Position numbers and translations under genes: made by a program. From Halorussus vallis (GTDB lineage Archaea; Halobacteriota; Halobacteria; Halobacteriales; Haladaptataceae), in the NCBI RefSeq assembly GCF_024138165.1, contig NZ_CP100000.1:1922001-1986000 (forward strand): a DNA stretch of 64,000 nt, in the 5' to 3' direction. Below are positions 45,015-58,279 of the stretch, one piece after another. The first letter of the stretch is position 1. Each line of letters opens with the position of its first letter. The notes beneath the pieces were generated by a model that was not told the DNA's origin, ran no database searches, and saw only the letters and a program-made list of their open reading frames with translations.

Positions 45015-45133
45015 GTGCGGGCGTTCGATGCTCTCGTGGAAATAGTCTTGTTTCGCTCGTTGAGCGGAACTTCCTCGAAAGCCTCCGACCACTCGCTCCG
45101 AGCCGCGACAGCGACAGCAGAGGGAAGCACTTC

Positions 45134-45246
45134 GAAAGCCCCCGCCCGCTCGCGGTCGCTGGCCGGGATATTCACGCCTCGCTGCCGCTCGGCGAGAATA
45201 GTGCCCGCCCAGGCGACCACGTGAACGCGAGCGGGCGGCCCCTTTC
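45134..45246 (-). repeat. Structured intergenic element, family A copy 1
   Basis: Read on the minus strand it begins GAAAG and ends CTTTC, which pair. A 3x3 G/G internal loop follows, then a 13-bp stem (CCGCCCGCTCGCG / CGCGAGCGGGCGG). Inside, GGTCGC-CTGG pairs with CCAGCGACC, and a conserved TATTCTCGC...GCGTGAATA hairpin closes the top. Copy 2 at 58038-58157 keeps all of these pairings, with changed bases in the second stem. The rest of this 416-bp gene-free stretch holds a hairpin at 45254-45274 (stem CGTCGGACC / GGTCCGACG) and two AGCGCTTCCGG direct repeats, but no gene. Confidence 0.8.
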
Positions 45247-45430
45247 AGTCCACCGTCGGACCTCCGGTCCGACGAGCTCTCGTTCGCTTCGCTCACGAGA
45301 ACCACCCTGCCGGTTGGTCGGCCGAGCGTTTGCGGTTGTTCGTGTCGCAAAGCGCTTCCGGTGGACTAGTTCACCGAGCGCTTCCGGCTGGTGATTCGGT
45401 CGGCTATCGCACCTGAAAACACGCTCCTCG

Positions 45431-57876: not shown

Positions 57877-58037
57877 ACCACTCCGTTAGGAAAGCCAACC
57901 TGTAAGCCTTTGTCATTCGGTCGGCGGTTCCGGTAGCGGGCGGGGTCGGTAGGGCACGAAGGTGCGGTAAGCCGGCAGAACGGAAAGGGAAACGAACCTC
58001 TGCAGACGCTCGGTGAAACTGACCGCCGGGTAGGACT

Positions 58038-58157
58038 GAAAGGGGCCGGCCGCTCGCGCATCGCTTGGTCGTCTCTGGAGGCGACTATTCTCGCCGAGCG
58101 CCGCAGGCGCGAAGCGTGAATATCCTCCAGAGCGACCGCGAGCGGGCGGGGGCTTTC
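58038..58157 (+). repeat. Structured intergenic element, family A copy 2
   Basis: GAAAG (58038-58042) pairs with CTTTC (58153-58157). A GGG/GGG internal loop follows, then a GC stem ending CCGCTCGCG / CGCGAGCGG with one mismatch. Inside, CTCTGGAGG pairs with CCTCCAGAG, where copy 1 has a different but still paired sequence, and the conserved TATTCTCGC...GCGTGAATA hairpin caps it. It ends 122 bases before the M28 peptidase start; copy 1 ends 119 bases before the UspA start, in the same orientation to the gene. The remaining parts of this 403-bp gap show no gene. Confidence 0.8.
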
Positions 58158-58279
58158 GAGGCGGTTTCGTTTAGTGCGTCGTCGCAGTTCGTCACGAGTG
58201 ACCAGTTCTCGCCTTCCCGTTCGTGCACAACCTCATCTCTGTCCCCACCTTTTTTCCCTCGCTCGCCCCATCTCGTGCC

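Follow-up and report, generated by a model that had tools for sequence, protein, structure and literature searches.

A covarying hairpin family of haloarchaea with the features of an undescribed small mobile element

Two imperfect hairpins in the window (the 64,000-nucleotide stretch of Halorussus vallis DNA that was analysed) belong to a repeat family that is multi-copy, haloarchaea-wide and constrained in structure with a preferred strand, that occupies lineage-specific sites, and whose near-identical hairpins lie in unrelated flanks. The element is probably a high-copy, transposase-less mobile repeat of haloarchaea, in which the hairpin is the part that spreads and most copies have no role in the neighbouring gene. 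It appears to be a small mobile element of a kind not yet described: the literature searched contains no description of this hairpin family, and Rfam 15 has no match on it, either for the window at gathering cut-offs (no family matches) or for eight related loci at E-values up to 0.05. The latter result agrees with the initial annotation, which recognised no named RNA family.

Copy A (positions 45134-45246, minus strand) and copy B (58038-58157, plus strand) are both of hairpin type F1 and match the covariance model R1 with 117 and 130 bits, respectively. As first described, they share GAAAG...CTTTC ends, a GGG/GGG internal loop, a GC-rich stem and a TATTC...GAATA top hairpin. Copy A can be read as GAAAG-GGG-stem-tandem-GA top hairpin-stem'-GGG-CTTTC. 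Predicted RNA folding energies are -76.7 kcal/mol for copy A and -74.3 kcal/mol for copy B (z-scores of -5.5 and -4.9 against 200 dinucleotide shuffles, none of which folds as well), and z is close to -5 whichever strand is folded. Sequence in common with other copies reaches past the hairpin on both sides. The left flank of copy A (45247-45412, minus strand) contains degenerate CCACCGGAAGCGCTCGGTGAACCAA repeats, after which come a small GTCGGACC/GGTCCGAC hairpin and GGTGGACT; it is one of three left contexts found in this genome; its right flank (45073-45133, minus strand) ends, as read from the sequence, in a decayed right-arm repeat (GAGTGGTCGGAGGCTTTCGAGG). Copy B is preceded by a single CGCTCGGTGAA..ACCGCCGGGTAGGACT unit (58002-58037, plus strand) and followed by GAGGCGGTTTCG (58158-58169, plus strand), the start of the right-hand consensus GAGGCGGTCAC.

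The initial annotation counted two copies, which is a large underestimate. About 80 distinct places in the genome match R1 (built from 25 type F1 copies) or R2 (built from 11 type F2 copies) after removal of opposite-strand double calls, and the strict pattern GAAAGGGGCN{70,100}GGGGCTTTC occurs 35 times (0 times when read backwards). Most copies are 112-120 bp long, with a hairpin unit that is usually 100-120 nt. F1 and F2 have the outer GAAAG-GGG-stem-GGG-CTTTC frame in common and differ in their interiors; F2 resembles the general haloarchaeal form, which has the conserved motifs GAHGYAAGSACYGCAG and GAGGASCGCAGCGAG. The conserved top hairpin proposed at first (TATTCTCGC/GCGTGAATA) is present in only a few copies, and elsewhere the top covaries too. 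R1 matches are found in 42 of 59 genomes of the order, and within the genus they range from 0 and 1 up to at least 54 per genome. Among the GTDB matches listed for an exact 17-mer, most are from Halobacteria, the genera including Haloarcula, Haladaptatus, Halorussus, Halobaculum, Halosimplex, Haloglomus, Halopiger and others. Virus and phage collections contain essentially no element, with none in phage records. Viral carriage was rejected: IMG/VR gave four 16-mer matches in which the rest of the element is absent.

The folded shape is under strong selection or constraint. The alignment of 69 distinct R1 matches has 96.5% of its cells paired and double changes at 32 of 43 pairs; for 114 haloarchaeal R2 matches the figures are 91.7% and 31 of 36. 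Covariation is overwhelming: scores are 0.317 for R1 (0.104 shuffled) and 0.375 for R2 (0.107 shuffled), with 0 of 500 shuffles as high, falling to about 0.05 or less when the partners are slid. Because these are structure-fitted alignments, pairing in the outer stem was also counted without alignment in 210 distinct copies; it is 88-90% Watson-Crick at positions unused in choosing the copies. The suggestion that selection acts on structure is supported both by covariation over many copies and by an alignment-free count. Further copies and significant covariation have both been found. Mismatches are asymmetric, with G.T outnumbering A.C by roughly 3:1: among 161 copies without other outer-stem mismatches, counted without alignment, G.T occurs 25 times and A.C 7 times (p = 0.002, a value made optimistic by kinship among the copies), and the fitted alignments with the closing T.G pair omitted agree, with 72 G.T against 20 A.C and 126 against 53. 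This asymmetry points to a hairpin that acts as one folded strand in the GAAAGGGG orientation, as either RNA or single-stranded DNA.

According to a crude gene caller, 67 of 73 copies are intergenic, and for 49 of 73 the following gene lies on the same strand, at variable distances. Element orientation tracks the local gene strand (r = 0.38) and not GC skew (r = 0.04). A replication-direction bias was rejected: orientation had seemed to be blocked along the chromosome, but runs tests are not significant (p = 0.28 and 0.56). Distance-weighted clustering of orientation gives p of approximately 0.003 without inverted pairs; as this clustering follows gene strand rather than GC skew, no link to replication is claimed.

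A multiplied family of expressed small RNAs, in which a folded RNA with a conserved unpaired core acts in trans, is unlikely. Strong covariation, conserved unpaired motifs and a greater number of G.U than of A.C on one strand are consistent with it, as are the bias towards the direction of the next gene and a homologue beside an OB-fold gene that is conserved across families (see below). However, the range across congeners, from 0 to at least 54 copies, marks the element as dispensable, the window copies have no conserved locus in the genus, no consistent promoter is seen, and G.T pairs, at about 2%, are few for a long-lived RNA helix.

Comparison of related genomes argues for mobility. At the UspA locus (copy A), at least five congeners (L108, L114, L117, L118 and L119) carry the same gene pair, whose short intergenic region lacks the element. 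At the M28 peptidase locus (copy B), the element is absent in all 14 congeners with an orthologue, most of which keep the same divergent neighbour. In the sister species G004 and G014 (approximately 95% identical), some copies are common to both and others lie opposite element-free sites, and in the L038/L367 pair the hairpin is missing with the left flank kept. Such presence/absence could partly be due to loss rather than gain, but at the M28 site, where every other congener lacks the element, gain is favoured. The closest filled/empty pairs differ by about 5%, a divergence at which exact insertion ends and target duplications are illegible.

Hairpin and flank also vary independently. Copy A is 97.4% identical to the copy at C1:58416, and the flanks of the two are unrelated. 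Among 56 copies in the genome only ten hairpin pairs are more than 93% identical (range 93-97%); for these, flank identity is 0.57-0.75 upstream (background 0.63) and 0.44-0.60 downstream (background 0.57). F1 hairpins occur with all three left contexts, and so do F2 hairpins. On these comparisons the hairpin behaves like a unit that is moved, or converted, separately from the sequence around it; gene conversion could also give rise to near-identical hairpins in different flanks. Lineage-specific occupancy, the wide range in copies per genome and the mixing of flanks support the non-autonomous mobile element that was one of the options in the initial annotation. Hairpin-less and mini forms are found as well. 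Hairpin-less sites with GGGACTGAAAGGGGCCGGGGGCTTTC or near variants lie at L074 position 4488 (minus strand) and in L207, L256, L279, L297 and L302, and are excision products, slippage deletions or unfilled targets.

The mechanism envisaged for spread is as follows. The spreading unit would be the imperfect hairpin GAAAG-GGG-[stem]-core-[stem']-GGG-CTTTC, carried in at least three kinds of flank. It would be recognised in single-stranded form, most likely as single-stranded DNA and possibly as RNA, through its shape and its conserved unpaired bases (the GGG/GGG loop and the internal core). A putative enzyme supplied in trans would then copy it to new intergenic sites. Most copies, including both in the window, would have no role in the adjacent gene, and the mild bias towards the direction of local transcription probably stems from some insertions being better tolerated or favoured.

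Candidates for the enzyme were sought. No reverse transcriptase (PF00078) is matched in 18 genomes of the genus, where the enzyme could have been lost since; retroposition was rejected on this ground. That the hairpin is a PATE/REP-type element, mobilised in single-stranded form by a Y1 (IS200/IS605) transposase, is improbable. Elements of this type do move as single-stranded DNA hairpins, PATEs (transposase-free derivatives) are abundant in Haloquadratum (PMC3119063), and the inverted pairs described below resemble REPINs. However, no Y1 transposase (PF01797) is matched in G001, G002, G003 or G011, each of which has at least 54 element matches, and the hairpin is much longer than REPs. The Y1 and TnpB loci of the H. 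vallis genome have no ends in common with the element, on which ground an IS605/TnpB origin was rejected.

It is highly improbable that the covariation arose without selection, through template-switching palindrome repair that keeps the arms of a neutral repeat complementary. The arms are almost all Watson-Crick with few intermediates, as such correction would produce, but it would erase both the GGG/GGG mismatch and the unpaired core, which are kept across haloarchaea, and the excess of G.T over A.C also argues against it.

At both window loci, where a TATA-like box had been noted, a T-rich, promoter-like box separates the element from the gene (the AT-rich ACTATTT at 45040-45046, minus strand, for the UspA gene; CCTTTTTTCC at 58248-58257, plus strand, for the M28 peptidase gene), and by inspection it appears position-equivalent in element-free congeners. 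Because the box stands between the two, the element is probably outside the transcript at both loci. Haloarchaeal mRNAs are frequently leaderless. That the element is a cis-acting 5' leader, riboswitch or other regulatory element of the UspA and M28 peptidase genes, an option left standing by the initial annotation, has a probability close to negligible: the sense orientation of both copies, their distances from the start codons (119 and 122 bases, correctly measured) and the mild overall same-direction bias fit it, but congeners carry the same genes with no element conserved upstream, the promoter-like box intervenes, the downstream genes are unrelated, and the common spacing of about 120 bases is a coincidence, since distances to the next gene range from about 20 to several hundred bp (crude gene caller).

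A mobile repeat of this kind is nearest in organisation to the SMR-A and REP/REPIN elements; it works like such elements but is classed with neither group. SMR-A of Haloquadratum walsbyi (HqIRS42/43/55; Dyall-Smith et al. 2011, PMC3119063) is similar in its length of about 110 bp, prominent terminal inverted repeats, lack of coding capacity, tens of copies, unexplained mobilisation and location inside other palindromic elements. SMR-A copies of one type are commonly more than 95% identical, target IS605/PATE palindromes and insert with no target duplication (PMC3119063). In contrast, the stems of the present family vary and covary and the family is haloarchaea-wide, features that set it apart from SMR-A as described; high identity is confined to the ten pairs above 93% among 56 copies, and instead of insertion into near-terminal IS605-type/PATE palindromes, no ends are shared with the genome's own TnpB and Y1 loci, and IS605 ends were not found in the surroundings of the element. 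REP, REPIN and BIME sequences of bacteria are likewise intergenic, high-copy, hairpin-forming, often in inverted pairs and transposase-less. REPs are 20-40 bp long, have tags of the GTAG or CGTC type and are accompanied by a Y1 (RAYT) enzyme (PMC2817692, PMC3116915, PMC3733652), whereas the present hairpin is about 115 nt with GAAAG/CTTTC ends and has no Y1 (RAYT) enzyme in the four genomes with at least 54 matches. MITEs are similar in short length, terminal inverted repeats and lack of coding capacity but differ in that no parent transposon (IS605/IS1341-type loci compared) and, at the divergence of the available site pairs, no target duplication are recognised here. The sense overlapping transcript RNA sot2652 (RF02657) is also a structured haloarchaeal RNA tied to mobile DNA; its near-threshold match is at an annotated transposase gene on a Natrinema plasmid, and none is on the element.

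A homologue of the hairpin has a fixed place on haloarchaeal plasmids. There, a gene for an OB-fold, RPA-like "DNA-binding protein" (a name from record annotation; Pfam has no match for two OB-fold-annotated proteins) is divergent to a conserved non-coding region of about 600 nt, the last 120 nt or so of which have the same core and ends as the hairpin. The region matches 165 plasmid records, though not every record includes the hairpin part; it has no Rfam match in the loci scanned and is probably structured. In the H. vallis genome, two relatives of the OB-fold gene (C4:75108 and C1:3226307) are each arranged alike, with a model match at a distance of about 540-560 bp; the arrangement recurs in G004, G009 and G013. 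The loci of this region are L342:1490-2146, L348, L337, L388-L399 and L467, with C4:75108-76664 and C1:3226307-3227794 in H. vallis. At a locus of the congener G013, 657 bases are identical to a Halorussus limi plasmid. Contig C4 (167,465 bases) carries two Orc1/Cdc6 genes twice each; the equal-scoring copies are separated by about 121.28 kb. This suggests that the contig has a circular overlap or contains an unresolved duplication.

As this homologue lies at a fixed plasmid place, not every copy is freely mobile. It is conceivable, if rather doubtful, that a large undescribed structured RNA, or a locus that acts on single-stranded DNA, beside the OB-fold/RPA-type plasmid gene gave rise to the dispersed hairpins as SINE-like mobile offshoots, its terminal domain of about 120 nt with the common core GAAAG...GCAAGCACCGCAG...GAGGAGCGCAGCG...CTTTC having become mobile in trans. 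The mobile hairpins either derive from the plasmid locus or invaded it.

Small transposase-less repeats account for most mobile-element differences between Haloquadratum strains, and the movement of SMRs has been called enigmatic (PMC3119063). The present family provides copies by the hundred, with a preferred strand and a structural signature that can be measured, and its filled and empty sites in sister species, with the fixed homologue by a gene of single-stranded DNA-binding type, make the question of movement testable. It also cautions that covarying hairpins upstream of genes need not be leaders.

The arrangement of the hairpins varies. At many loci two hairpins stand back to back around a centre of 35-47 nt, CCCACCCG..CGGGTGGG, and in other such pairs the centre is longer and includes the module GAGGGATGA..GAATCGGTTGGGGAGG. 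In several genera the hairpin is often preceded by another repeated module, GGCGCGYGCTGGCGC..GAGGGATGA..GAATCGGTTGGGGAGG..GTGGAT (L006, L023, L031, L034, L095:13800-13920 and L391). Extra hairpins are nested in element loops with the outer stem intact (L330, L198, L226, L306 and L467), for example TTCGAAAGRCG..CGYCTTTCGTGAT..CGAGAGAGC..GCTCTCTCG. On a Halorussus salilacus plasmid (L390:4110-4300), the right arm GAGCGGGCGGGGGCTTTCTAAGCGTTCACG.. is present in several near-identical tandem repeats after one hairpin.
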